NCBI RefSeq assembly: GCF_041381155.1 | Contig: NC_091134.1 | Span: 62,240,902-62,304,901 of the forward strand | DNA: 64,000 bases | Direction: 5' to 3' | DNA from: Argopecten irradians | Taxonomy: Eukaryota > Mollusca > Bivalvia > Pectinida > Pectinidae | Part shown: positions 595 to 48,581 of the stretch, piece after piece | Numbering within the stretch: the first letter of the stretch is position 1 | How the letters are laid out: every line of letters begins with the position of its first letter | Notes under the pieces: model-generated | What the model was told of the DNA's origin: nothing | The model's database searches: none | Seen by the model: the letters and a program-made list of their open reading frames with translations, nothing else | Position numbers and translations under genes: made by a program

Positions 595-3500
595 CTTAGA
601 CACTCCTATTCCTGTAGAGGCAGTGGGGTCTTGAAATGTGGACGGCAGTGAGAACTCAATCTTATTGGAGGAGAGCTGCAGTGGCTGACGTAGGGCCGTG
701 GCAATGACATGCTTACTGGGGGTGGCGATAGTCAGGGGCTGGGGGCGGGGATTAATGATATGTTGAATGCTGTTCTTATTTGAGGGAGCAGGGGTGGGAG
801 GGAAAGGGGTGGGGGCCGGAGAAGGAGCTCCAATCTGATTAATTATAACTGGCATAATGAAGTCATATGCTGCCACCTACAAAAATTAACATAGAACATT
901 CAAAGTCAAAGGAAGAGGACACCTCAAGTAAACGACATAAGGACAGACATGCATTAAAAAGTGACAAATACATGTATATTATATGCTCAATCACGTAAAA
1001 ACACTGTTAACATAATGTATTATAGGAATAAAAATTGTGTATACCAAGCGGCATCCCAAATTCAGTCTCTCTTTTTTTAAATCTGTAATAAGTGTGGTAT
1101 TGAGATATAAATCTTTCGCTATGTACAATTTGTGGAATTATATGACTTTGTTGAAATATTTAAGTGTTGAAATAACTAATTCAGGTGAATTCAAAATCCC
1201 TAATTGTTTCTCAGAACAAGACTATTTCAAATATTTCTGAATACTCACCTCTGTTGGAGTGAAGATTATCTCCCCTTCAATGGTCTCCTCTGGTGCCATG
1301 GTAACTGTGTACATCCCAGGATTCAACATCTGATAACTGTAGTCCTCTGTAAAAATACAAAGTATATTGTCGAAATAACTGTATACACACCAGAGATTGA
1401 TAAAGTTGTCATTCAGTATCTATTACATACTAGTAAATCATGTGCATTAATCTCAATGATATTAAACACATTCTTGAAAGGACCAAACTTCTATAATGAT
1501 AGGACATTTTTGCCCAAATCACAAACAGATGATACCTATAATTCTAAACATATACCAACCTTGTGTCTGGTATCCTGAGAAGTTGAGAGAAAAGTCTTTG
1601 TATCTTGTTAAATCCAGCTCCAACTTCACTTTAGTGATTGCCTGAAATTTAAAAGAATAATGATGTAGTCTGAATGATCCAGCGTTAGTATTTCTTAAGC
1701 TTTGTGATCTCCCACTGTAATGTATTTACTAGTTATGTATTAAGTTGATTGCATTATAGGAAAAGTTCAACACCCATATATATATATAATGTTTGATAAA
1801 GATTTGTGATACTAACCTTGTTGGTGAGTTTGAAAGGGAGAGTTTGTGATACTAACCTTGTTGGTGAGTTTGAAAGGGAGAGTTTGTGATACTAACCTTG
1901 TTGGTGAGTTTGAATGGGAGAGTTTGTGATACTAACCTTGTTGGTGAGTTTGAATGGGAGAGTTTGTGATACTAACCTTGTTGGTGAGTTTGAATGGGAG
2001 AGTTTGTGATACTAACCTTGTTGGTGAGTTTGAATGGGAGAGTTTGTGATACTAACCTTGTTGGTGAGTTTGAATGAGAGAGTTTGTGATACTAACCTTG
2101 TTGATGAGTTTGAATGGGAGAGTTTGTGATACTAACCTTGTTGGTGAGTTTGAATGGGAGAGTTTGTGATACTAACCTTGTTGGTGAGTTTGAATGGGAG
2201 AGTTTGTGATACTAACCTTGTTGGTGAGTTTGAATGGGAGAGTTGCCCCAGATCCACAGTACACACCACCAAAGTTAAAGGAGTCCTGTAAAAATATTTC
2301 CAATAAGATTGTGAGGAAATCAAAAAACAATATCATGTCAATATCTGAGATGGTCTTAATCCCTAGTTATTGATTTTATACATAACAAATTTATCCTCTT
2401 GTTTCACTGATACTTTCATATTTCACCTTCTAATTAATACCAAATATTAAAACTGGCAGACACAGCATACAAATTAAAGATTTTAATAGTTTTAACTATT
2501 GTTATCTACTGATACTAAACATATAAAAATGAAGAATATTAATTCTTCATAGTACCGAGTTAGATGCCTGTTTGCAATAAAGTCATTACTTACCATATCT
2601 ATATCGACGGTCGGCGGTTCCACAGTCCCACCCATTCTTAACTCCAGCACCTTACCCCCCTTGATGGCCACCTGAACCTTGGTGTCAAACTTAAGGATGG
2701 CTGAAGGGGTCAGCTGGACTTTAAGTTCAGCATGACCACCGACAGGTACCACCCCATGTAAGGGAGTAACCATCAGGCCAGGGAAAGGGTTAGAGTCAAT
2801 TACCTACAAAACAACAAAATCATAGATTGTAGAGTCAATTACCTACAAACACAAAACAATCAAATTATAGAGATTGTATCATTGTTACACTTATAATTAG
2901 TTGACAATATTAATTTCAAAAGGTTTAAAAAGTCAGCAAGACATATTTCCCAGCAACATAAACAACCTTCAAAAATTGTCAATGGTCAAAGCTAACAATG
3001 AGAAACAAATATAATCAGCTGGAGGTATATAATATCAGACATTCAGGAAAGCATCATAATAAAACAAATAAGAAACCTTACAAGTCAAGATAAGCTGTAA
3101 GCTTTGGCTTAAAATTCACAAAATTAAGGTATTGTGTCAAAACTTCCAACAAAACATAACAAACCAAAAGACAGCACCTTACTGCCTTTACTATTGTGAT
3201 GCCTTACCTGGAAATAGGCGTGATGTTGACCAGTGTTGGCCAGTAAGGCATTCCTTATAGTGGTCAGATTGATCGGGGTCTGACCAAACATTACCCTCCT
3301 CTCCATAAACTGGACATTGGGGGTTCCCATCTGTAAAAACAAAGTGGAGCATAAATATTTTTATTCTTCTTTGAAATCTACATCCAAAGGCAAATTTTCA
3401 TATTGCAAAAACATCAATTACAAAATTATGTCTTTGTCTTCACTGGCATTTTACAAAGCAAACACACGTACTAAGTGTATAGTGAGTTAACATAAGAAGG

Positions 3501-6500
3501 ATTTTATATGTGAAAAAAAAACCCAACAGAAATAGAACTTTTAGTAGAATTTTTAAAACACAATGTAACATCTATGGTGTAAACCCTATCCTGTCTAAAA
3601 CAGATACAGACTTCTAGGGACTATTAATCCACCCGAGACATATTGCTTACTGACCTCGACTTTACACTGGAGCTGTAGGGTGGGGCCTCCATGTACCATG
3701 AGGGAGAAGGAGCCATCCTCTGGGGCGAGGAAGGACGGGTGCCATACAACCTCACAGTCTAAATCTTTGTGGGCGTCCACAATACCTGGAAATAATCAAA
3801 TCAGTTGATTGTATTTATAGCAACACATTACTTGATTTTATTTCATAACAATTTCTTGCAATGCATGATACAAATGTATGTAAATGAATACATAATTCAT
3901 ATAGAATGATATGTAACAAATCACAATTGAAATGAGACATGGCAAGTAAAGCCGCTATGCATTGTTATTTGAAACAGGTTATAAATGCTGTTTTACAACT
4001 ACATACCTGTAGCCGGTCTGATAGAGAAAGCAGTGCCTCTTTCTCCAAGGTTTGGGGCCCACGTAAACTCAGCTGGGTAATTCAGTTTATTGAACAGAGT
4101 AATCACTCCACGGAATTCTGTCGAGCAAATTCATAAATCACATTTAAACAATCTTCTTTATCAATTAAAGAAAGATAGAATCACACAATTTTAATATTAT
4201 ATCTAAATGGATTAATGAATGAAATAAAAGTACACTTTACAACATAAATTTTGAAGAACTTTTAACTTCTTATGTAACTTACATTCATATCATTATAAGT
4301 CTCTTGGTCTGTTTTTTGAAAAGTTATATATTTACCTGCTTCTGCTGGCAGTCCAAAGGCAGGTGTGAGGACGAGCTCTTCAGTGGAGAGTTCCAGAGCT
4401 ACATGGACGACCTCGGCCACAACTGTCACATGGTGTTTGTAGTGACCATTAACAGTGTAGGACACTGACCTACACGGAAAGACACACAGTTAGGATATAT
4501 TTCACAAAGTGAAGTAAGACCAGCAAAAATTATATTTGACATTTTATAAATAAATTATCTAATGACTTTTACAACAAAGAGTAACTACATTGTACATTTA
4601 TTTTCTCCAAACATTCTTGACATCCTACTAAAGCCAAGATAAATAATTACTTGTATCTTGACTAGGAGATTATGTTTCGCTTCCTAAAATCAATTCATAA
4701 ACTGTTATTTTATTCCTCTCTTAAAATGGCCCATACAGCGAATCCCTGACTGGAGGACACAAGGAAACATCTCACCTCTGGAATTTCCCTTTAGAGTTGG
4801 ACTCAAACACGATGGGGAGGTGAGCCTTGGACTTAGGAGGAATCACCTGGGACAAAGGACTACTCTGTCTCAACTCTCGACAATCAATCTGATCAACAGA
4901 AATTGTATCCGTCAATGAATTTGGTTTCATGTAATTAAGTGCTATCAAAATACATTCTCATAATAAAACCTTGAAGATTTAATCTTGATTTGACTCCATT
5001 GTTCAAGGACACAAGTAAATATAGCTGAGTTATCTGTTTTTGAGGTACTGTAAGTACTGATTGTTTGTGAACGTAATATAAAAGTCATATAAAAAAGCTT
5101 GATTTCCACACACAAACTAGAAACATCAGATTCAATAACTTCATCCAAGTGCAGACGACTCTGTAATATGTGGAATATTCACAAGAACATCAGTCATACC
5201 AAAATCATTGAAGAGTAAGTACATTACATACCTCTGCAACAACATGTATGTATGTGTCCAAGTTGTTTACGATGGACAGATTCCTTGTACAGACTGACCG
5301 CAGACATACTTGACCAAAGTCCAGGGTTGGAGGGCCTAAAATATAAACAAATTTCCCATGTAGTCTATATACATCATTTTAATAACATAATTATGTATTG
5401 TGATTGCTTTATTGACATGCTGGTATTTATAATCTAATATTGGCTGAAATAGGAATTGCTCCAATGATCAGTGGAATGTAATAACTGACCTATGATAATT
5501 TGGTGTAACATCTGTGGTGATAGGACCTTAGTACAGTCCAGTTTCTCCTTCTTGGTGGTAGGTACAGCATTTAGACCCTCACAAGCCTGGAAGAAGCATT
5601 TAAACAGAAGTTTTTCTATTGGTATTTAGACAGCTAGAATGATTGTATGATACAATATCCATTTATGGACATGCTAGAAAAATTTCAAGATTAATAATAA
5701 CAGTAAGTTCAAATAAAATTTAGCTAAAAGTATATATTATATACAGATGGTCTTACCTCTTTAGTAATAGTTTCAGCTTCAGCAGCAGACAGTTCCTTTG
5801 TACTCAGGAGTTTGAAGTCTGCATTTGGAGGAGTAGGGCCTAGATTTATAGAAAAAATAAATTAAAATCATCAAATTAAATGTAATGTTTTCAAATCCTT
5901 TCTACTTCATTGACAGTGAACAGGCATTAGGAGTACATCAATCCTGATAGAATTTGATGACTGGTGTTCCAGTTTGGGATTTAGAAACAAGAAATGTATA
6001 CAGCAGTTGGTTGCTAGGCTTGACATAATGAGAAGTAGTTGTCCTCAATGAGAAAATAATGAGAAAAATCAATAGTGAAATACATGAATGTCTATTGTTT
6101 GTGAGGAGGATACTAACTTCTAGGATCTGGTTTGATCTCCATCTGTGTCAGACGTTTTGGCTTCAGACCAGCAGCTGACTTGATTCCAATATCCAACTTA
6201 TTGTTTGTTTCTTTGAATTCTCTGTAAAATTTTGATAGTTAAGTAAAAACATGTTCTATCCAAAGGTCCAATATTACACACTGATTATTGTATCACTAAT
6301 GAAAAAGGAAAGTCTTTTTAATTTATAGATATCAATAACATGTTTGTCATCATTAATCGCTGATAAATGCTTCAAACGCATAAACAAAGTCTACTGAAGA
6401 ACAACAAAAATCTTAACGACATGCATTGTTATTTTTAACATTTTGAAGGTATTTCAAGCAAAATCTTAAATTTTCAAAACTTGACCCTGACTGAATATAA

Positions 6501-9500
6501 AGTACCTGGACTTGATCTGATTGAGACGGTTTTGCCTCATTTGCCTTAGCATGCCCACATAACTGTTACGATGGTTCACTTTGCTGGCTTCCTCGTTGAG
6601 ATTCAGGGCATAGTCAGGGTCTACATAGTTATGACGTTTTGTCTTGGTAAAAATAGTTCTGTAATGAAGCGAGAACAGGATTATAAAGCCTCAGTAAGCA
6701 CTAGTACTGAAATGTAAGTACTGTTTTCTATATTATTAGATTAGTGATTCTAACAACAATACCAGGAATTAAGCTATTTACGAAACATCAATTCTTAAGT
6801 GTCTTGACATTAACAGCTAGGTACAAATGATTTAAGTCACAGAAAAAATCATACAAAATCATAACTTAGAGTGCAGAGATAAGTTATTATTTTTAATAAA
6901 ATACTAAAGAGCTAAATAAGTCACATTTCCAAAACTTTCAACAAATTCATCTAATCTACAGAAAGAAGGAGATAAAAGTATAAACTTACTTATAAGTCTC
7001 GCCCCTCTCACTTGGCCTAATACTAGTAGCCCTGTCATTGGGAAATGACACTCTGGCATTATCATCAGTGGGGTCAACATTTTTCTGAGAATGAAGTCCA
7101 GGTTTGCCTCCTCCTGCCACAGCATTCCTAGGATTTTCATCGAGCTGGGAAAATGTGGTGTCCACAAACATGCCCACCTCATTGCTGATGTAAGGTGTGA
7201 TTCCTGGGAAAACATTAAACAATATTGAACAAACATTGTCAACAGTTATACAAAATTAAATCAGGATTAATTAGGGGATAGATTGACATTTTCATGAATC
7301 TACATTGAGTTTTTTTAGTCATGAGACAATATTTGAAATGCATGTTGCATTTTGGGGGGGGGGGGGAATGTTGAATAAAATCTCTAGATGACTTTCAACT
7401 TACCTGGGTTGTACTTTGGCTGCTTTTTCTTGAAGATAGGATCACTCCTGCCAAGGAATGTCAGAGGGAATGTGCTGATCACTTGTAGGTTGATTTCCAT
7501 TGGATTCTGGTTGTCTGCCACCTGACCGATCACATCCAGCATCTGTGTGGTCTTAAATCCCCCTGGTTATACAGATAAAACTATAGTATACACACCATAG
7601 GGAATATTTAAACGAGATTATGTATAATCATTATATGTGAACCAGAACATATTACACAATCTCAAAATATGAATATATCTCTAATGAATTTAACTGTTGG
7701 TCTTAATAATATTGTAGATATATTTTGTATTACCCTTTAACTATATTAGTTTAAAAACTAATGCACCACTGATTTTGTTTGGCCAGCTCCATGGTATTAA
7801 CTTACATTTAATTAGTTAATTTGAAATACTACACATACACAAATATCTATAGTTGAGGGAAATTAAAGTGCAAAAAATGCAATCAGTCCTAAAGCTACAC
7901 TAACAATTTGATAAAACATTACATGAATATACCTATTTGTTTTGGTGAAAATGAGAATATAACATCTTGAGATTGGTTGGCAGGAATTTTTCCACTGGGT
8001 GGGTGGGTGGAGAAGTGAGCCACTCGTCTGAACTGGAATGTTGTGGCTAGATCCGGAGACTCGTTTTTAATGGTACATAGGACATCAGCATGCTCTCCTA
8101 TAGGACACTCCCCAAAGTCATACTTCAGTGACGGCATCACAGATAACAGTACAGGTAACGCTGTACCAGTCAGGGCCACCTCCACAAATGAACCTGTTAT
8201 AACACAAACAGTGGAATCTGTGTAAACAGCACCCTGCATTATACCAAATATCTTTCTGTGCTATACAGAGGATCAATTTCCAAGAGAATTTCCAATACAA
8301 ATAGTGGTATCAATCTGTGATTTTATTGAAACTCTTATGTTTGAATCAATCCATTTTTTTTTTTTTTTTTTTAAAGTATCTGCATTTAAATTTCATAAAC
8401 TTGATCTTATATTTGTTACTAATCAAATGTCTCCTTTGCAAATATTCTTTACAAATTCATTTATCCATGTATAAACATGTAGAAATCTACTTTTTTCAAT
8501 ATTAAGCAGGACAGATTATATAAAAATAGGAAGTTCATTTGAAACATCACAAACATTTCCCCCTTATTAAATAACTGTTTGTGAGGCGACATAATATTGG
8601 CAAACAAATATGGAGAAAGTAAGGCATTATAACAGAATTGCATACTAGATCAAATACATACCATCTGCATATTTACCAGGTGACTTAGAACTAAAGCCAG
8701 TGCTTGAGCCTACAATCTGTATCCTCATAAACAGCGCAAAGTCCTTTCTGGGAGGGGGCTTCTTCTGTCCCTTCCATCCCTCTTTGGAAGCATTCCACCT
8801 GCATAACATTGACACATGTATAGTTTATAGGACTAAAATAACCTTTGATCTTAAATTTACCATTATATTCCAAATATCGTTGCCAACAATACTTCTTTTT
8901 TAGTGTTAATATATTTCTCTGACTTTGTAGGATACAGAAACAAAGTAGTTTGCCCAAGAACAGACATAGCGAAAGTTGAAAAAAATGGCAGGACATTCTG
9001 ACTGGCAAGGACTGTGAGTAAGCCGTACCAAACAAAATTTTGTTGGACCGAACATTAATCTGAATTTTTGAAGTAAACATAACTTCCACCTATTAATATA
9101 CAGGCAGCGTTTTCATGATTATCTTATGCAGTTTACATTTTTGCCAGCTTCCGCACCTGCATCATACTTCAGACACCATTTCTACCTACTTCTGGTACTC
9201 AATAATTGCCGGACAGTCGGTCTGGACTGCATTTTAAAAAAGCCGGTCCGAGTCAAATTTTGCCGGACATGTCCGTCGGACCGGCATATTTCGCGATGTC
9301 TGCAAGAATACTTTGGCATTGCATTTTATTGTTTTTATATTTCTCATACAGGTCATTTAGAATGTTTGAAGTACTCATTTCTCGCATTTGTTGGTGTGAA
9401 TAAAAATGAATTGCATTTTCTAATTCATACTTACCTAGGACTAAACCTAAAGAATACTGGTATCTTTTCATATGGCTGTAGCATTCCTTGGTTAGGAATA

Positions 9501-12500
9501 GCCGTGATCAGGGAGGTCAGCACATTAGTATGACCTTGAGGTTTCTCTCCGTCTGACCCCTGGTCAGCTAAAGCATCCACAGTACTCTGGGTCAAGTCCA
9601 CACCCTGGAGCATTACCAATATGTTGGTTTAACAAATCACAACAACTTTGATAGCAACATAAGAATCCATATTCAGCATACTAGCAATGTTTCTCTGGCC
9701 TAAATGTACCCATCCCTCAGGAAGGGTGGGGCATAAAATGTTACCATCAATGTTTATACAAGCAATGTTTCTCTGGCCTAAATGTCCCCACCCCCTCAGG
9801 TAGGTTGGGGCATCAAATGTTAGTAATCACCAGGAACTGCAATCAAATGATGCAGTAGCAGAAAATCTCAATTCTTAATTTTGTTAAAAAAATAATGGAA
9901 GTTCTCACAATATGCAAAGTTAGCAATAAAACGTAAAGAATGCTTTCTCCCTTTTTTTCTTTTACAGACCATTGAATTTGACAGGATATCATTTCTGATA
10001 AATAAGTTTTTTAATGGAACAGTTGTTTTCATATATATATTTTAATTTTGAAGAGTTAATACCATTTCTTGTGCAACTGCATCTTCATCAAGAACAGCCA
10101 CAAAATTAACAGGTTCTGGTCCATTGTTGAACAGTAAAGCACATTCTGTTTTGTCAGAGCCGTAGTAAGTGCTTCCAAATCGAACACATTCCACTGGTTT
10201 CTGTGTGTTCATGCCCAAAACCTCCAGTGTTCTATCCACTAATGTTCCCTTTATCACAAGATTTTTACTCTCCTTTCCTTCCAGTTTAACCCTGTAGTGA
10301 AAATAGGAAACATAATGAGGATTAGCAACTGACCCAATTCATTATTTTTTATATTTTTTCCATTATGTTAACAGTGCAGTGTTATAGTATTATTATGAAA
10401 TACACATACATATGTATACTGTAAGAGATTGTTGAGAACATTTAAACTTATACCAGGTACCAATGTTTATAATATCCTTTCTGACCTTCAGACTGATTCC
10501 ATTTCTGAATATTTTTTAACGATTAGCATATCATTTATTGAAACAGTTTAAAAGCTAAGTTGTTTATTTGGACTATATGTTGTTGTGTTATGACTTACTT
10601 AGCCACTTCTTCAAATATTCCAGCTTGTTTTGTAACATATTCAACCTGAAATAAAAAAGGCACATCAGTTAGACAAAACTACACATGTACCGGTATATAG
10701 GTTACCAACACATTTTACGAACACCAAACTTTCATTAGAACAGGCAAATGATAACAAATCTTCATTTTATCAGAATAATAACAAGTAATAACCAGTTCAT
10801 ACCTTTATCATCTGGACACTCTTAGGAGGAACAGAGCCACTGCTTGGCATGATGGCAATAGGCTTGTCACCTCCATACTTGATTTTGAAGTCTCCTGCCT
10901 TTGAGCCATGGTTTACCAAGGATATCTCATGAGACACAGTCTTACTGTTAGCTACAAGATTTCCAAAGTTTACCACTTGCTCAATTTCAAGCAGAGGTTG
11001 GGGAGGATAACTGAAACACACAAAAAGTTAATCTCTAATTAAATATTGTGATGAGAAACATAAGTTTTATTATATCAAACTTTTGATCAATCATTTTAAA
11101 GGTAAGTAATTGTTAAAACCAATGTTCATTTTATTGTGTAATTTCCTTTTATTGAGAAACATTTATAATTACTGGTGATAGAACTTGTGAATCTTTCCTA
11201 CTTACGCCACCAATGGTATTTCTATCACATCTCCATCTACTGTGACCACAAGTCTGTCAGTAACTTCTTTCTCCTCTTTGATTTCGAATTCCACCACAGC
11301 AGGTACACATAATCCTGGGGCTACAGGTTTAGTTGGGTTTCTTACTTTTAGTTGAAAATGCTGAAGCATAATAAGTATACAATCAAATTTAAATAAGTGT
11401 TTTAAAAATTGACAGATTACCAACATAATAATGGATAAGGATTAATGCAAGATGAACTACCTTTTTTGGCAACAATAAAAAGCTTTTGGATTCTTAATTA
11501 CATAGACAGAAAGATTTGATCATGGATTTATAATAAATAGGAAGGTTTGATTATTTCTTCTTGGTAAGTAACATGTTGATTATAAACAGGAAGGTTGAAG
11601 GATTTCCCCCCATTTTAAGGTATTGATTTTTTTGACAATTTTGTGAAACATCTGTGTCATAGAATAATAATATGACATTTTAAGAAATGCAACATATTTA
11701 ATCCTAACTGTATTTTCTAATATTAACTACGAATAAACATAATTATTACTACAGTACATAAGTTGTCAAAATTTTCTATAACAGTACATTTATTCTACTG
11801 TTGAGTGTTCAAATATGGTACAATCCAGAAATATCAAAATACACACATGGTATGACCATGGGCAGAGGTGTAATACTGAAAATCACATTTGTTCTGGGGC
11901 TGATACTGTCAGCTGTTCAACAAACTTGTATGTACAACGCATAATTTCCTCTACATTTGTACATTGACAGACTAATTATCTTGTTCGATCTAAATCAGAA
12001 GTTTAACTTAAACCTTGTAGCAAACATTTTATTGCATCAAGTCAACAGTGTTGCAAATATGCTACATATCACTTTCTTGGAATGCAATTCCTTGACAAAA
12101 TTTAGAACATTTATATTGGACCAGACTGACCAAGGACGTATAAATCCTTGGAGTGACGAAGGAGACAAATGACAATAATTTGCTTCCTGTACTACAGTAG
12201 GCCTCCCGTGCATCAAATGACGTTGATTTGTAAGTACGTGCTGGAGAAACAGCTTTGATGGTAGCGCATGGCAGATGTATATTTTGAGAAACAGTTTTAG
12301 AGGTCTAGCTACAATGTGCAGGACAAGTCTAGGTTGCATATTGATAATAGATATTAAAAACTTTATTAATTTTATTCTACGATAAATAACAATACCTAGG
12401 ACTACTGTGGTAAATAGATATGAAACACCTACCTTAGTTTTTGGGCCATAGTAACGAATGCTTTTGCTGGTTTTACTCGTATTTTTTACTGTGACATTTA

Positions 12501-12582
12501 GCTGATGCACAGTGTTCACTTCTGCATCATAAAATTCTAGCACCGATGGCGTAATCCGGACGCCACATTTATCCCCTTCCAT
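595..12582 (-). CDS. CFAP47: CFAP47-like cilia- and flagella-associated protein, 5' part (25 exons; continues beyond the left edge)
   Basis: Axonemal protein built of Ig-like ASH/MSP beta-sandwich repeats. I read 25 in-phase exons, about 1,207 residues: 12433-12582 (start ATG), 11206-11360, 10803-11010, 10599-10645, 10063-10291, 9435-9604, 8662-8798 (or from 8677), 7933-8193, 7404-7562, 6990-7203, 6506-6658, 6118-6221, 5757-5839, 5490-5586, 5232-5335, 4776-4888, 4336-4469, 4007-4117, 3655-3785, 3208-3330, 2594-2802, 2217-2285, 1560-1641, 1249-1346, 595-876. The protein starts MEGDKCGVRITPSVLEF. A conserved-looking linker, PNDRATSIRPSER followed by TIFTKTKRHNYVDP, lies near residues 565-590. 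Known of the family: CFAP47 is a very long sperm-flagellum/cilium protein with a CH domain further on, not reached here. CFAP74, CFAP65, CFAP221 and DLEC1 share the ASH fold, but as I recall their N-termini do not match. The axonemal ASH-protein class is firm; the CFAP47 name rests on memory. Confidence 0.8.
1801..2244. repeat. 40-bp minisatellite, 11 copies, each containing the exon-22 splice donor of the CFAP47-like gene
   Basis: Eleven tandem 40-bp units run from 1801 to 2240, plus a 4-bp remnant. Read on the minus (coding) strand, each unit holds 27 nt matching the end of exon 22 (TLPFKLTNK) followed by the donor GTTAGTATC. The gene's own junction is the rightmost copy, donor at 2215-2216. 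The next exon (1560-1641, starting GCAATCACT) continues in phase from AACAAG. Copies differ by a few substitutions: GAAAGG for GAATGG at 1801 and 1841, GAATGA at 2041, TTGATG at 2081. Confidence 0.95.
8961..9302. mobile_element. MITE in a CFAP47 intron (family copy 1)
   Basis: The ends are inverted: CAGACATAGCGAAA at 8961 and TTTCGCGATGTCTG ending at 9302. The inside is rich in GGTCCG/GCCGGAC motifs. A second copy in the opposite orientation lies at 23811-24155, so this is a dispersed repeat. No coding capacity seen. Confidence 0.7.
9682..9821. repeat. Direct duplication of about 78 bp in a CFAP47 intron
   Basis: AGCAATGTTTCTCTGGCC and the following CCTCAGG and GGGGCAT stretches recur with a 78-bp offset (9682 and 9760). 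Non-coding. Confidence 0.75.
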
Positions 12583-12997: not shown

Positions 12998-15900
12998 ATG
13001 GGAGTAGATTACTACAACATCCTCAGTTTATCGAGGAGTGCAACTGATACCGACATTAAGAAACAGTAAGTCACAATGAAGTGATCATATTGTTAACAGC
13101 ATATAGAAATTTGATCATAACCGTATTTGAAACCATGTAAACAAAACATATCGTCTTGACTCGTGTGTCTCTGTTTCTTCTGAATACCGATTATCATACG
13201 GCTAAAAATCCTGTTTTGTTCCTTAATTTCTTTCGTCATATTAGTGGTGTAATAGAGATCATTATTTATCTGTAAAGATTCAATAAAATAACCCCATTCA
13301 TTTCGCCAGTGTTTTCATTATCAGTGAATAACCTAAAATCTACAAAAATCTAAACTGTTTTTCTGTACGAGCATGGGTCTAAACATTGTGTACATTTTGT
13401 ATGTAAGGATACTCGAATAATGTCTTCTCTATTTTCTTTGGTAGTGTTAAATAAAATACCTCAACCTGTAAGATATTTCTTTATAAATTAATATATTTGT
13501 AATAGGAGAAGAGAAAATGTAACGGCCAGATCGGGATTCGAACCCGGGACCCTCCAAACACTAGCCAAGTGCTCTACTGACTGAGCTACCTGGTCACCGA
13601 TGATCAACAAAGTCCAATCCCGCTACACTCCTCTCTCCTTTCACAAAGTCTTCGCCCTCGAAGACATACGAGCCACTTCCAAACACAACCACTGTGGGCT
13701 ATTTAGTTAGGCGCCAATTCTGTAACAGGAGAGGAGAAAATGTAGTGACCAGACCGGGATTCGAACCCGGGACCCTCCGAACACTAGCCGAGTGCTATAC
13801 CGACTGAGCTACCTGGTCACCGATGATCGACCAAGTTCAAACCCACTACATATCTACAAGAACAAGAGAGCGGCATTTGAATTTTGAATTAACAATCTGC
13901 GAACAGGCAAACACTAAACCAGAAACCAATGTTGTATTGATTGGGCTTTAACACCCGCTTTTGGTTCCCGACGGTACCCACCAGTCAATACATCCTTTCT
14001 TTTCTCAAAGTTTTTACCCTCAATTACATCGAAGACCACCACTGTGGGTAGTTGGGCACCAATTCTGTAACTGTACTGTAGAGCAGAAAATGTAGCAGCT
14101 AAAACAGGTTTATAAAACATTGATTGTCAAAAATATTTTAAGGGTCTTCATGCATGTAATCAAATAAGTTGTTCCGTTTTATACTCAAATTTTACTGTAA
14201 AGGCTGCGACTGGCCCTTTGTCATTAAACAAACATTAAAGGCCCAATATCTGTATCTTTCTTATTTTTTTTTTCGTGATTTAGAAGAATGTTGAAAAAAA
14301 ATCCTGTTATAAATCATGCAGAGACAGCAGTCAAGATGAGCGATTATGATTCAGAATATTTTGATAAAAATCAAATAAATATTAAACATCGCTAGGTGGG
14401 TCCCACTTAGTCAAACAAGCCGAAGTTAGCCGATATTGTAAAGTTGTTGCCGAGAAAGTCATGTGATTACCGTAACTACGTAATGTCTGTCCGAACTCTT
14501 CCGAAAACGGGTCATGAACTTTCCGACTTCCGTTCCGCAATAATCGTAACTTCTATGGAGACCAGTTTAAAATGAAAGCATGTTTACATGTATCGAATTT
14601 CAACAACTGCTGTACCAAAGTTATTAAAAAAACATTATAAATATTCTTTAATATATCTTAATTTTAACCACATCTACAAATTTTAACAATAACGAAGTCG
14701 AATTTAACTTGAACTTTTTGTTGATAGTTACTTATACTATAGTGTGGCTTTAAAGTTGTTAAATTACAAAGAAAATCATTCAACTATTGATATTGTATTG
14801 TTTTACAGATACAGAAAGTTATCCCTCCGTTTCCATCCAGAGAGAAATCCTGGAGATCAAGCAGCTTTTGACAAATTCAAGCAAGTGGCAGAGGCTTATG
14901 ATGTGTTATGTGATCGTAAGTTGTTTTTTCTTACTTGCACAGATAGAAAGTACAGTATACTCCATTGTTATACAGTTTGCCACCTTTTGTCCAGTGTCCA
15001 TTTTGGTGCTATAACAGGGAATGCAGTACAACAGTGTTTACAATATGAAAGACCCAACCAATATCGATCGTGACCACCAATGATATTCCAGTATATGTGC
15101 CGCTTCCGTTCATTTAGTAACTTAACCTAGATACAAACGCATAAATTAAATATCATATTTTTTAAAGAAACAATTTAAATAGATTGTGTATCCTCTGTAG
15201 CCTTTGTTATATGTTAATGACGATACACTTGGGAGGGGGAGAGGGCGGTAAAATGCAGAATCCATTATCTAATTCTAAATTCAAATAATTTGTGCAATTT
15301 CAGCTCCTAAGCGTGCAGTATATGATCAGTTTGGAGAAGAAGGTTTGAAGAATGGTGTGCCTGAGGGAAGTGGGGAAACTGGAGCATGGACTCAAGGATA
15401 CACATTCCATGGAAATTCTGACAAAGTTTTCAGAGATTTCTTTGGAGGAGATAACCCATATCAAGGTAAAATTTCAATAGTAGCAGTTGAACTGAATTTT
15501 ATGTGTGTCTTAGTTTTATTGTAAACGAGTTCTCCAAGGAGCTATAGAAGCTAAGATGTATCAATCCATGCAACACTTCATTAAATACATGTACAAAAGT
15601 TATGTTATATCAATCTATGAAAATGACAAAATGTTTTGAATTTCTACAGAGTTTTACGACAGAGTGGATGGTGACCTCAGCATGGGTTTTGGAGGTCTGC
15701 AGGGAAGAGGTCGCAAGAAGCAAGATCCTCCTATTGAGAGGGACTTATTTCTATCACTAGAAGAAGTTTACCATGGTTGCACGAAAAAAATGAAGATTTC
15801 AAGAAGGGTAAGTTTTAATTTTGCTTCAAGATTTTTTTACATAGAAAAAGTTTTCTTTTGCCATCATTAAATTTCCATATCATCCCCCTAACAAATGTGA

Positions 15901-16852
15901 AATTCCAGCTTAATTCAATCAGTGTTAAATACTATCATACTCCGATATAATTCTAGGTCATGAATGAGGACGGCCATACTTCCAGCATTAGGGACAAAAT
16001 TCTTACAATCACAGTGAAAAAGGGATGGAAACCCGGAACGAAAATCACATTTCCAGAGGAAGGCGATCAGGGACCTAACAATGTGCCAGGTAATACTGTA
16101 GTTTCTCTTGGTTTTGTCTCTGGTGTCTGTTTGAAACAACTGAATTTTGAAAATAATCATTGGAAGAAAAGATAGTGTAATGATCATTTGATATATGTTG
16201 CATTTGTCTTAGACATTCTATAAATAATGTAGTATGTAAAAATCTTTTTCACATGACATGTATTAAAATGGAATGAATTTAAATCTTTCAATTTTAGCTG
16301 ACATTGTATTCATCGTAAAAGATAAGCCCCATCCTCGGTTCAGACGCAGTGGTGTAAACCTGGTCCATACTGCCAAGGTACCACTCGGTAAGGCTCTCAC
16401 AGGGTGTGACGTGGAAATTAACACTCTGGACGAGCGCACACTACACATCCCCATCAATGATATCATCAAGTAAGTTACATGCTTCACTTCTCAAAAATTA
16501 CGATATCTTAAATGCATCTTTCAATATTTACAAATAAAACTACAACATAATCAGATATTAAGACTTCCATTGAGTTTTAGAAATAAAAATAAGGCAGCTC
16601 TCTGCATCATGTTTTCAAAATTCTCATGAAAAATAAGTAATTAAACTTCTCTTTGTTGCAATGTTGTAAGTATGTGATTTCTCTTTTTTTGTTTTGAGGC
16701 CTGGATACACAAAAAGAGTTCCTGGAGAAGGAATGCCAATTTCACAGAACCCATCACAGAAGGGAGACTTAGTGATAGAATTTGACATTGAATTCCCTAC
16801 ATCCCTAACACCGGACAGGAAAGATATGATTAGGCGGTCCCTTTTACAGTAA
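12998..16852 (+). CDS. DNAJB13: DNAJB13-like DnaJ-family protein (radial spoke component)
   Basis: Seven exons: 12998-13065, 14809-14915, 15304-15465, 15650-15807, 15957-16089, 16298-16469, 16699-16852, total 954 nt, 317 residues. N-terminal J domain ([10 protein letters not shown]...), then a J-B-type substrate-binding region with [32 protein letters not shown] and [14 protein letters not shown], ending [14 protein letters not shown]. Order and length fit DNAJB13, a sperm/ciliary radial-spoke protein. The HPD motif that stimulates Hsp70 reads HPE here (residues 32-34). Human DNAJB13 also lacks HPD, having HPL as I recall, so canonical co-chaperone activity is unlikely. Start choice: first ATG, in the family-typical MGxDYY context. 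The gene is divergent from CFAP47. A polyadenylation signal AATAAA lies at 17333-17338. Confidence 0.93.
13524..13595 (-). tRNA. tRNA-Thr(AGT)-like sequence, copy 1 (probably SINE head or pseudogene)
   Basis: It folds into a 72-nt cloverleaf: acceptor GACCAGG/TCTGGCC, D stem GCTC/GAGC, loop CTAGTGT with anticodon AGT, and a T arm with GGTTCGAATCC (B box). The anticodon stem is weak and the acceptor and T stem carry mismatches. It is embedded in a longer repeat with copy 2, which argues for a tRNA-derived repeat rather than a working tRNA gene. Confidence 0.6.
13746..13818 (-). tRNA. tRNA-Thr(AGT)-like sequence, copy 2 (SINE head or pseudogene)
   Basis: A 72-nt cloverleaf plus position 73: acceptor GACCAGG/TCTGGTC, A box TAGCTCAGTCGG, B box GGTTCGAATCC, T stem CCGGG/CCCGG, anticodon loop CTAGTGT. 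The D stem has one mismatch and the anticodon stem four of five pairs. Both Pol III internal boxes look intact. The copy sits 223 bp from copy 1 with shared flanks (GAGGAGAAAATGTA), so a tandem SINE-like unit is the better reading. Confidence 0.6.
14239..14749. mobile_element. TTAA-flanked MITE in DNAJB13 intron 1 (piggyBac-like?)
   Basis: TTAA occurs at 14235-14238 and 14750-14753. The ends AGGCCCAATATCTG and TATAGTGTGGCT are only roughly inverted. Family assignment rests on the TTAA flanks and weak TIRs; no transposase is present. Confidence 0.4.
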
Positions 16853-42083: not shown

Positions 42084-45000
42084 TTACGTGAGCCAGGTTT
42101 TGACTGTGCCCTGTATGATGACTCCACATACAGGACAGCGCCTCACTGCTTGAGCGCATATTTGACAACACAGGAGATGGGCACACGGAAGAAACGCGAT
42201 TGAGGCATCTTCATCTTCACATATCCTACACAGCATTTGTTTTTTTAATCTGTGGTTCTCTTCCATCAGCCGTCGCACCTCACGTTCTGAAAATGCGAAG
42301 GTGAATTTGTGTTATCAGATTCACATAATATATAGTTTATAATGCAGTACATCCTCCTATTGTGAGTGTTGAGAAGAAATGAATGTTAAAACATAAGAAG
42401 CAAAAAGGTGTTTATATATATATATATATGCAGTAAATACGACTACTACGTTTGCAACAAGCTAATCTATTGAAAACAACGCTAATTTATTGTAAACATC
42501 GTTAATCTAATGTATGTAAACAACACAAATCTATTGTAAGCAAGGCTTATCTATTGAAGACAGTGTTAATAAAAGAGTGGTACCACTTAAGGTGGTAGTC
42601 TCACATTCCCCAAAATTTTCCTGTCGTTCAATATTTTTCATATTTGATTTATGAAGTAAATATGTTGTTATGCATCTTCTGTCAAAGTTTCGAAGAAATT
42701 GAACCATCCATTTTTTCTAAATACATGTAAATATTCAAATTTGCCATTTTTGAGTAGATTCTGCACATGATAAAACAGCATTAGTCTGTACTAAATCTGC
42801 CCTGTAAATGAAAATAATTAACAAAATGTTCTACGATATATATATTGTTTAATTGATGTGATATATATCAATCCTTTTTTGAAGAAAATGCTTTACTTCT
42901 CGTCATAATTAATTTCTAGTGATCATTTTTGGAGGAAATTAGGTAAAAAAGACGCAAGTAAATTACCTAAAATATTCTCACCAAAATGAAAATAAATCAA
43001 AATTGTGAAGTTCAATTTTTATAGAAAAATAACAGACTAAAAAGTGACAAAGTTGCTTTTAATCAGTCAATTTTCAAGAAAATTGAACCACAATTTGTCA
43101 AGATAGAGCATTTTTAGCACCAAAAAACCTTCATTTTTCATTGAAAAAGACGGGATTCACAATAGAGTTATCTCCCCTAATATGTATACTTTTTATACAA
43201 TCACTGCAGAATTTTCTGTTACAATATAGCCTAGATGTCAATACTTTTAGTTTTAAAATCATTAACAATGTTTAATTAATATATATTTACCAGAAAATAG
43301 CAATTTAAGATTGATAGGATTATTTGTGTTGTTATTTTTCAAACTAATAAAATAATTTATTCATAAATTCGAACTTCAGAAAAGGGGGTATTAATCAAAT
43401 CGCGGTCATTCAAATGCTTGAAGAGCTTGGGGCACTGTCATAACTCAAGCGTCTGTATGAAAAAATCATGATCTATCTCCCTTACCACGAGACTACATTC
43501 TTAATATTGATTCTTCATAGCTGCAATGTTTTCACATAATCCATTCGACTCTAAAATAAATGGACGTCTTAAAGCATTTTCAGAGATGCGCTTAATACTG
43601 ACATATGTTATACAGTAAAATAAGTATATTTGTGTTGTTTTTATCAGAAAGGGAAAATACAAAGTACATTCGCCATTGGCTGTTGAATTCTGGTGACTAC
43701 ATATATTTAAACTCCAAAATTGGAGTGAAAGGAGATGTAAAAGATACTTTCTGTAATAGTGCTTAAAAGAAACTTAACAATAATTCAGTGCTATTTTGAG
43801 AGTACTGATTTAATAACATTACTTATAAATCTCAAGATACAAGTTACTTATGTAATAAGTGCCAAGTGTCGTGTTTATAATAATATTATAATTATAATTT
43901 CCATGTTAAAATACAAAATGTATTTAAACCGGATCATCCATTACTGGGAAATTTTGGATGGCACACTTTCTCGCTGTTTATCCTGTAATTCCGCTTTGAT
44001 TGTAATGATGATTTGACAAACTGATTATATATAGAACACAGATACTTTTCCATGTGTTCTATAGGCCTAGAATAATTTTTGTACCGTTCTGTCTTATTTT
44101 ATATAGACTCCGACGAACGTCCGAGCTATTCACAAATAGACAATAGAACAGTCATTACAACCTGAGTTGTGGGATAATAATGCTGATAATAAAGATGACT
44201 TATTACAATGACAATACACTGCTAACTTTTAAATAGCTGTACAAATTGATTGAGCTGTATCACATTTTTGGTTCTTCAGGATAAGGACAACCATCACTCT
44301 TGTCATACAGCTTAGTCACAAGATGTCGTCATAGGTATAGAGCAAGCAAAGATCGAGGCTAGCAGTTAACACACAAATAAATTTGAATTTTCATTGCCTA
44401 CTTTTAACTGTCGAAAAAAAATCAAAACACTTTTATGATTTTTTTTTAAATTAAAAAAGTAGATACTGGCAAATATGAAGCGAATGATATAGTAACGTGG
44501 TTATCTAGGAATGCATTTCCTTGTCTGAAGTGATAAATTCCCTAAAATTACAAATGATGTAATACTTGTAAACAGCAGTTGTAAGGAACACATGTAGCCC
44601 AATATATAGACAAACACCTAACTTACCGTCTGGGTCCTCACTGTTTGTGTTCGGTATGTTCTCACTGCTTGGTAGTCCTCTATCATCCATAGTAGTACAC
44701 CCCCCTTCATTAGTACGTAGCATCTCTCTCAGAATATCAGTACTGTGGATGTCGCTCTTCCCTACAAATACATGGATATGACATAGTAAATCTCGTCTAG
44801 TATGATTTGTTTTTGTAGTTGTATGTCGTAACGGGACGTGGAGTGCTTGTGAGCAATCAAGTGCTTTCCAAATTGCTTTCGAAACATGCAATGATACGGA
44901 GTAATTAGTTTTTTCTTTCTATTTAGTAGTTATTTAATGATGGTCACATCGGGACAAAAATTACAATCTGTTCTAAGAATCAGGTGGCGAAAATGGAACA

Positions 45001-48000
45001 GAATGCGCCAAAGACAGTAATCACTTTCTCTCAAAATTTTCCGAAAGATTAAAAAATGTATGAAAAAATTATACTGTGTTATATTTTGACGCGTTGAAAT
45101 AATCACCAAAACCTTATATGACTAGTTTGATAATCCTTTCAACATTGCGGAAGATAAGTCACATCCGAGGAAGTATACATTGATAACTCATTTCCCTGAG
45201 TATTTATATCTTGTTTTACTGTAATGACAAAGAAGGAAATTAGAGTCTAGTGTTGCTTGGTCCCTATAATCTGACTTTTCTCCTTGTGGCACGGAAGTAT
45301 GGACTTACAAAGATAAATGAAAAATAAGCCACACAAACAATTTTATTGATAATTTACTGGTTTGATTTTAGTCAGATATAACCTGCTGAATATGGTGTTG
45401 GTGGAATACGATCAGATATTCCATTTGGACGACGTTACTTCTCTTTAGTGACATTTCTTTACTTCTCGCCTATTCCTTAAATTGTTCATGGTATTGTAAC
45501 ATAACTATTTAATACCGTTATACATAGATCATTGTTTTACAGCAGGAAAACTAGGTGGTAGATTCAGCTGAATTGCAATAAATCTTAATGATAGTAGCAC
45601 CAAAACTGGAGAGTATGCTCTCCTTTTTGACAACTCTTTAAATCGTCAAAAAATGATAATATCTCTAATAATTGACTAATACTAGTTATCATTGCTTTGA
45701 TTTACGCTCCCAATATATGAGTTGAGAGCTATGTGACAGAACTGGGATTACCTTTGGACCACAGGTCCTGGATCACTTGTTTGGCCTGTTCTGGGGAGTA
45801 CCCTTGTTGTAACACGCTCTGAAATGCTGGTAGCTCCTCCATCATTTTGTCAGTCAGAAGTTCATCTGGATTTTCGCACACTTTCCCTGACGTTTTACCA
45901 TTGCATTTTTCATTTACCTATAATATGAATAGCAAACATGTTTATAAATACACAATATATAAAATTTCAATGATTAGTGCTTAAAGATGCTCCACCGCTG
46001 ACAAATAGTATTTTTTTCCCTATCAAAAACAGGAGCAGACGATTTAGTATTTTTCTTCAGTTACAAAAGCTACTTACTTTACACCATTACCACCATTGAA
46101 AAGTTTGAGCTTCTAATTTTACTTCAAGTTAAAATATGAAAAATAATTAATTGCATCCCGAAAAAATTCCGTGGCACTATACCTAATATAGAATGAGGTA
46201 ATGTTTGCGCATGCACCAAAGGCGAAATAAATTAGTTTATGTTATTTTTTGTCTTAATAAGGCATATATATATACGATTAAACACCAATTATTGTTCAAA
46301 TGATGAATATCATTTATGCTCTGTCGGCGGTGGAGCATCTTTAAGTACTTCTTACATTTTCATTGTAGCTACTGCTCTAACGGGAAAGCAGCGCATATGA
46401 CCAGTCTGGTGATTAGGAAGTGAAATAAGCTATTTTAATGTGTAACAGTAGCTATAAAAAGCTATAATCACCAGATTATTATTCCACTGCTTTTGATATA
46501 TGTTGATTTCTGTACATAAAACATTTACCTGTACCTGATCATCTGTGGTTACTCTTTCATGCACCAGACGGATGAAGTCAAGGCCTTTGTTCTGACGTAA
46601 ATATCCACACTTTGGAAACCATCGCGCATGCTCAATCCAGGGGTCATCTCCATCCTCCCAGTTCCTCAGTCCTCCTCCACAAAAGAAGCACCTTGTATAA
46701 TCTGCGTATCCAGCATACACCAGTCCAGCCTCCGCCATAAGGCGGGGTGCCTGTGATCCTGACCACCCCCTAAACGAACTGATTCTCACGGTCAGAACAG
46801 CAAACGCTGGGTATTTAGGCTTGTCGAATATTACCCCAAGAGGTGCTAACTTCTGAATCACCGATTCACTGACAGAACCAGAAGCGGAAGAAGATCCAGT
46901 ATGACTGCGGCGATTTTGAACTGGCGAGGTATTCCGTAGACCGCTAGCTGTATCATTCATTTGTGGTCCAGTATTATGCTGCCCGTTCCTAACATTATCA
47001 TGCGCACGTTCAGGTGATTGTCCATTTAGATAGCTTCTTGCCATGTGCTGAGTCTGTGTAGGTCTGTCCGTAGGATAAGTTGGTATTGGTTCCCTTTCAT
47101 TTGTACGATATTCACCAGAAGGATCCTCTTGTTGTGTATCAATATTCCTAATCGGTGTATTAAAATGACGACCGTTCCGTCCGTCTTCGCCGTTGTTAAC
47201 ACCTGATACGCCTATTGAAGTTCCACTCTGTAGATTTCCATCTGACGCAGTCTGATGCTTATTATGAAGTACAGGCTCTCCGTAATTTGTAGGCAATGGT
47301 TGAGAAGCCGTCGTGGGATTTTGAGACGAATGGTCATCATCGGTGTCTCGAGGAATCGGAATGTTAGAATCGTCTGAATCGTTCACATGCCTGCACATAG
47401 GCGATATCTGTCTGTGGATTTCAAATGGATCTTCGCCTGCAATCCAATTTGATCGATATTTCCCACAAGAATAGCATCGCACTTTGTCTAACGTACCCGT
47501 ATGGTAAAATCCAGCTCTCGCCAATAGGATTGGCCGCACGTTCATATCGCGATGCGCAGAAAATGACTGTAACCGCAACCATTCAATATTCATTGATTGC
47601 GAAGTATCGCCATCTGCTGAACTTTGAAAATAGAGATTCAGACTTGATGGGAAAACATCCAGGTATGTTTTATGATGTAAAGGTAGGCATAGCGATGAAA
47701 AGTTCTTTTTGAATACCAAAGACGAAAATGTCTCTGTCTTGTCCTTGACACTCTTTACGTCTTGTATAGTCACAGAACATTTACTGAAACATAATTTATC
47801 CATTTTTGATTCGACATCAATACTTTGGATATCCTTTATAAGACCAATTATCACCAACACGTGCATGATAATGTATAATATCCTGATGTCATAAACGATA
47901 CAGCTGATGATGGCGAATACAGCTATAAATATAATGATTCTATCAATAACCACAGAGGGTTTTCTACTCCACACGCCTAAGGTTTCATGTTGGTAATTCA

Positions 48001-48316
48001 GACGACGCTTAAAAACCTCCAGATTTACTAACTTATCATATTGCACACTGGCTTCTGTAGACTTATCTCTTTCCCCGGATTTCACTGGTTTGTTGAAAGA
48101 TTTAAACAAGCATTTTGATAACTCGGATTTGTTTCTAATAACATTGTTATGTGCGAAATTTGGACGTTTCTCCTGTTGCCGAGATGAGGTAACACCTCCG
48201 TCCGACTGTGACCGTCTGTGTCTGGGGTGAAAGTATTTGCCAAATATATGTTCCGAATGCCGACGACATCTGCTCGTATCGCGGCAACCACGGTATGGTC
48301 CTCCGAAAGAACTCAT
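42084..48316 (-). CDS. Inhibitor of apoptosis protein: two BIRs, UBA-like segment, RING, with putative membrane anchor
   Basis: Four coding exons, 46529-48316, 45752-45917, 44627-44761, 42084-42286, 2,292 nt, 763 residues. BIR1 (about 244-310) has zinc ligands C281, C284, H301, C308 and [11 protein letters not shown]2 (about 508-573) has C543, C546, H563, C570 and DGDDPWIEH. Residues about 615-652 look like a UBA domain ([15 protein letters not shown]). The C-terminal RING (716-750) reads CRIC...[10 protein letters not shown]...CPVC, an E3 ligase module. Known: BIR/UBA/RING proteins bind caspases or signalling adaptors and ubiquitinate them, and bivalves have expanded IAP families. Odd: residues about 124-160 are two strongly hydrophobic stretches ([17 protein letters not shown] and [15 protein letters not shown]), after a basic N-terminus. 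The BIRs are 200 residues apart, joined by a polar Asn/Thr/Ser-rich linker. No CARD. It is one of the BIRC2/3/4-like group, not assignable to a symbol. Confidence 0.93.
42287..44626. other. IAP intron 3
   Basis: AT-rich with a TA microsatellite near 42415-42430. The stretch TTAAGGTGGTAGTCTCACAT at 42590 and a roughly inverted counterpart near 43485 hint at an old element about 0.9 kb long. No coding sequence supported. Confidence 0.4.
45981..46344. mobile_element. piggyBac-like MITE in IAP intron 1
   Basis: TTAA at 45981-45984 and 46341-46344 brackets inverted ends AGATGCTCCACCGCTGACA and TGTCGGCGGTGGAGCATCT (one mismatch in 19). TTAA target duplication is the piggyBac hallmark. No transposase. 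Confidence 0.85.
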
Positions 48317-48581
48317 AATTTGTATCTGAAATGATATACAAACAGATCACATGGGGCGAACTTTTCACGAACAGAACAAAACTGCGATAAACTTAAAAAT
48401 AAACTGAAACATTAAGGAAACTTCCTTATGTGTCGCTAAGAACGCCTTTAATATCACGTGGACTAGATACTGACTTCCGCACTGTCGATAATTATAGACA
48501 GACAGACAGACAGACAAACATTCTTTACAGAGATTTACAAAGATTGTTTGTCAATTTTATGTTTATGAATTAATCAAAATA

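Follow-up and report, generated by a model that had tools for sequence, protein, structure and literature searches.

An array of eleven identical splice donors at the exon 22/intron 22 boundary of CFAP47 in Argopecten irradians, probably carried as a tolerated minisatellite

How does a gene stay intact when the donor that ends one of its exons is repeated eleven times, and which of the eleven is used? Where two comparable donors compete, the intron-proximal one was reported to be favoured, by a means which that report gives as not known (PMC6002489). The interest of the locus described here lies in the conflict between this rule and an intact CFAP47 gene. The locus lies near one end of the window, by which we mean the whole stretch of 64,000 nucleotides that was analysed (NC_091134.1, positions 62,240,902 to 62,304,901).

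The assignment to CFAP47, proposed in a first-pass annotation of the same DNA, is borne out by homology: a peptide that includes exon 22 matches residues 775-1189 of the solved CFAP47 chain 9ijj_4A (E 8e-90), and the N-terminal exons match residues 21-331 of the same chain (E 6.7e-53). A 25-exon model was built by hand from sequence and homology, in which the first coding exon (12582-12433) is taken as exon 1; the designation "exon 22" is valid on that count, with which the earlier numbering agrees. Because the frame of the 25 exons is open, without a stop, over 1208 codons, the gene does not look decayed. It extends past the window, since a two-exon peptide from locus L016 matches residues 2129-2192 (E 2e-11). 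The donor of exon 12 is likewise GTTAGT (GAA/GTTAGT, the slash marking the junction; 6113-6118, minus strand), and here too, like in the array, ATC comes next. Upstream of CFAP47 and divergent from it, exons coding for DnaJ (E 8.8e-12) and DnaJ C-terminal (E 3.8e-6) domains are found at 14708-16172 (plus strand). Elsewhere in the window, a 638-aa open frame at 46433-48346 (minus strand) contains two BIR domains (Pfam E 7.8e-36), and about 4 kb beyond it, at 42087-42311 (minus strand), lies an exon for a RING finger (E 3.3e-12), an arrangement like that of inhibitor-of-apoptosis proteins.

The boundary itself is made up of the following features (positions in the window):

1803..2242, minus strand: minisatellite of 11 units, each of 40 bp (26 nt of exon end plus 14 nt of intron start) with AAG/GTTAGT (TRF and sequence)
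2217..2285, minus strand: CFAP47 exon 22, 69 nt with both ends in phase 0, of which the final 26 nt are array copy 1 (homology and gene model)
1642..2216, minus strand: intron 22 with donor 1, 575 nt (175 nt with donor 11) (sequence)
1560..1641, minus strand: CFAP47 exon 23 (homology and gene model)

As assembled, the units run head-to-tail on the minus strand from the first, 2242-2203, to the last, 1842-1803, each unit being CTCTCCCATTCAAACTCACCAACAAG followed by GTTAGTATCACAAA. Near-identical head-to-tail units of 40 bp in 11 copies are what is expected of a minisatellite or VNTR (units of about 10-100 bp), and this one overlaps a splice junction, the exon 22 donor lying within copy 1. TRF reports it at 1803-2244 with a period of 40, 11.1 copies and 98% matches, the top score among the 34 rows with a period below 100 in the window. 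The consensus is matched exactly by 7 of the 11 units; each of copies 4, 5, 10 and 11 departs from it once (4 differences per 440 bp), so that the high homogeneity noted in the first-pass annotation holds. The intronic part of every unit opens with GTTAGT, and the exonic part counts 26 nt, or 28 nt if the dinucleotide AA that the exon-side (left) and right array edges have in common is included. The earlier description of a 40-bp unit, made of the exon end and a GTTAGT donor, was thus correct; its 27 exonic nucleotides differ from the 26 or 28 found here, within the phase ambiguity, and its array end at 2285 is in fact the start of exon 22, the array ending at 2242.

When an 80-nt array query was searched against the 846-Mb, 1508-contig assembly, 6 matches were obtained among the best candidates scored, all within the array; hence no second-haplotype copy was seen with this query among those candidates. 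A transposon or dispersed family was rejected as a source, the query having no match outside the array among the same candidates. A loose pattern search placed GGTTAGT in further tandem arrays of contig 1.

The outcome of each donor can be read from the gene model:

2211..2216, minus strand: donor 1, GTTAGT, the sole donor of the 11 that leaves the reading frame open (gene model)
1811..2176, minus strand: donors 2-11, at 2176, 2136, 2096, 2056, 2016, 1976, 1936, 1896, 1856 and 1816, each giving a premature stop (gene model)
2172..2174, minus strand: TAG within the GTTAGT of copy 2, codon 1069, in frame with any of donors 3-11 (gene model and sequence)

Joined via donor 1, exons 22 and 23 align without a gap to 9ijj_4A (TLPFKLTNK/AITKVKL versus IIPFIIKNR/GVTRARV). 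Use of donor 2 gives a 109-nt exon and a TAA that begins 8 nt into exon 23, and use of donors 3-11 gives exons of 149-469 nt, all with the same TAG. The first-pass annotation had placed the donors at 2216, 2176, 2136 and onwards, joined to the acceptor at 1642 with 40 nt added at each step, and these positions were recovered unchanged. It had further supposed that the frame is shifted unless the donor number is a multiple of three, a rule that fails because donors 2-11 all yield stops: donors 4, 7 and 10 keep the frame, yet carry the TAG, which rules out a rescue of the frame at such multiples. Thus, to judge from the sequence, donor 1 alone of the eleven would be productive. Exons 24 and 25, within the window, and one more CFAP47 exon, in L016, lie downstream of the stops; since each premature stop precedes further exon junctions, decoy transcripts should undergo nonsense-mediated decay.

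What, then, could set donor 1 apart? Donors were scored with a weight matrix derived from the 24 other CFAP47 donors, which were themselves scored leave-one-out for comparison. The repeated donor reaches 9.65 bits, a value exceeded by 8 of the 24, and its duplex with the unmodified 5′ end of U1 is predicted at -6.4 kcal/mol, 13 of the 24 being stronger. The 9-nt donor is unaltered in every copy, as had been claimed, and the array thus holds eleven identical donors, of ordinary to good strength by these scores. Because all of them are identical, donor 1 has no advantage within the 9 nt.

The donors had also been called equivalent, which stands for their sequence, whereas predicted folding separates one of them from the rest:

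2091..2096, minus strand: donor 4, in whose copy a C-to-T change weakens the predicted donor-covering hairpin (-1.6 versus -4.2 kcal/mol) (folding)

In single-unit folds, the unit is predicted to close over its own donor (ACU-C-ACC-AACAA-GGU-U-AGU), the higher stability being shared by the consensus and the forms of copy 5 and of copies 10 and 11, and the lower one being that of the copy 4 form. In local folding, the probability of an unpaired 9-nt donor is 0.026 for donor 4 and 0.0015-0.0032 for the other ten, and donor 4 stays the most open under two further window settings; for comparison, openness falls below the array median in 4 of the 24 other CFAP47 donors. The predicted accessibility of donor 4 is therefore about tenfold that of the remaining ten, and if structure matters, the preferred decoy would be donor 4 (2096). 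A fold of 521 nt gave z = -3.29; since shuffling removes the periodicity, single-unit folds were preferred as evidence over this score.

A second repeat in the same gene also falls on a splice junction:

2791..2872, minus strand: exon 21 acceptor duplicated, 39 bp x 2.1 copies, with the exon 21 start at 2803 and the extra-acceptor start at 2842, the latter leading to an in-frame TAG (TRF and sequence)

Here the two sites are unequal, with 7.35 bits for the extra acceptor versus 13.34 bits for the true one. Within the span of exons 1-25 (595-12582) TRF reports only these two repeats, each covering a junction. Because 15.7% of random 40-bp units placed in this span would cover one of its 49 junctions, a founder that struck a junction is unsurprising; for both repeats to do so, at 15.7% each, a post hoc calculation gives about 2.5%. 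Context was sampled in 160 kb taken from 16 fixed positions of the assembly, in which 13 arrays had five or more copies of units 15-100 bp long; these total 25,438 bp and are distributed over 8 of the 16 regions. A donor as strong as that of the CFAP47 array was absent, on both strands, from 46 sampled arrays of 1.8 or more copies. In a small control of 38 dynein exon matches at 7 loci, in which repeats were considered only near the ends of the HMM matches, none covered a junction, and the two 2-copy repeats found less than 40 bp from a match both ended short of the acceptor AG. Arrays are thus common in this assembly and junction arrays uncommon, though a single one is within the reach of chance.

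Several further repeats were noted in passing. In CFAP47 itself, an array of 47 bp x 10 at L016:5782-6247 (minus strand) begins 32 nt into the intron past the donor at 6279, and its units include CTCCTCCAG/GTCC, an acceptor-like motif; another, at L016:7045-7550 (minus strand), has 46-bp units x 11 with 98% matches and sits between exons of the gene. At L018:1563-2958 an array of 120 bp x 11.6 (96% matches) has a coding-like unit rich in Lys, Ser and Asp. Dynein AAA_6 gave equal or near-equal scores at G000 C669:5740-7972 and C3:9463961-9466047, as expected if a second haplotype had been left in the assembly.

The CFAP47 array differs from its known relatives in that an existing donor is multiplied. 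Zhuo and co-workers reportedly described, in 2007, human introns that arose from tandem arrays. In human segmental duplications, variable internal tandem repeats at exon-intron boundaries were reported, with 27 intron modifications and units averaging 30 bp x 4 (PMC2812944). There too, minisatellite-type units sit on the boundary and can alter splicing, through alternative retention or removal of repeats and through new introns in the segmental duplications; in CFAP47, in contrast, one existing donor is repeated 11 times, and no other copy was found in the assembly among the candidates scored. In flies and in potato, introns are reported to have been born through a duplicated AG/GT (PMC2891723; PMC4974935), and the likeness is that a tandem duplication makes extra AG/GT motifs, the potato duplication also crossing an intron-exon boundary. 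CFAP47, however, needs no new intron: its acceptor at 1642 is not part of the array, and the AGs that were duplicated score poorly as acceptors. Similar in spacing is exon 1 of estrogen receptor alpha, with two equal donors 33 nt apart, about one U1 footprint (PMC6002489); it has two donors, whereas CFAP47 has eleven natural copies with identical flanks, of which only the most intron-distal is productive. As available to us, PMC8724738 offers background on U1 at duplicated sites and no rule for the case of eleven donors. In a limited search of titles and abstract openings of the open-licence literature, no array with this many copies of one natural donor was found.

We lean towards the view that the array is a recent minisatellite carried as a tolerated passenger, with donor 1 used often enough for the protein to be made. 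It would have been founded when a segment spanning the boundary of exon 22 and intron 22 was duplicated in tandem, with 2 nt in common at the breakpoints; because the array edges share AA, the end match would have been of 2 nt at most. The minisatellite would have grown later to 11 copies and would persist since its 5′-most copy still has the exon end and donor of the original junction. With donor 1 joined to the 1642 acceptor, the other ten copies would be discarded in the 575-nt intron and the conserved protein would result, and the array would be tolerated, close to neutrally, because donor 1 preserves the protein and the array leaves with the intron. The ten extra donors would be real decoys, the use of which would cost some output and yield no new protein. 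Several points count against a tolerated passenger: the donors are identical; the intron-proximal rule (PMC6002489) would make donor 11 win (an intron of 175 versus 575 nt) and give a stop-bearing transcript; donor 4 is predicted to be the most accessible; the dynein control holds no junction-spanning repeat; and no equally strong donor occurs in the sampled arrays.

The first three of these points would equally suit a minisatellite that poisons the gene, a reading that we regard as unlikely but take seriously. U1 would sit on many copies, the intron-proximal or the most accessible donors would win, and most transcripts, bearing a stop whichever extra donor is chosen, would be decayed; the allele would be hypomorphic or null, dependent on copy number and possibly segregating. 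U1 was reported to cover 23 nt of exon and 12 nt of intron, 35 nt in all (PMC6002489), and could occupy every copy because the 40-nt pitch just exceeds this footprint. Against this, the remaining frame is intact across 25 exons, and loss of CFAP47 function is reported to harm sperm flagella in humans and mice (PMC10326514), for which reason a strong null would be expected to be rare except in heterozygotes.

A related and rather doubtful idea is that of a donor rheostat, in which 11 U1 snRNPs at that pitch compete, the productive fraction of CFAP47 mRNA depends on the repeat number, and the C-to-T change that opens donor 4 is a leak. We give similarly little weight to the reading that the array is real in kind while the number of copies, or whether most individuals have it, is a matter of the assembly or of a single individual: near-identical short arrays are easily mis-sized, and there is one assembly with no second copy found, but the array is ordered, with distinct marks in copies 4, 5, 10 and 11 and unique sequence to either side. 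Recursive splicing or nested small introns, which would remove the array in 40-nt multiples or stepwise via zero-length exons, is conceivable because AG abuts GT in all 11 units (CAACAAG/GTTAGT), the arrangement needed for intron birth by tandem duplication (PMC2891723; PMC4974935), but is highly improbable, as the AAGs that abut the donors reach, as acceptors, -3.0 to -4.0 bits, less than any of the 24 real CFAP47 acceptors (leave-one-out minimum -2.94 bits, next 1.05) and short of a usable acceptor with a pyrimidine tract, and as the acceptor in use is located outside the array, which would thus not supply both ends of a new intron.

With the tolerated passenger as the preferred reading, the CFAP47 locus offers a natural series in which up to eleven donors and their flanks are identical, a test of the choice between equal splice sites whose outcomes can be read from junction reads. 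If donor 1 wins, proximity and equal strength would be insufficient to decide donor choice; if it loses, a minisatellite can switch a gene off via the multiplication of a splice site. Should the rheostat be true, alleles of different array length would set the dose of a ciliary or sperm-tail protein.
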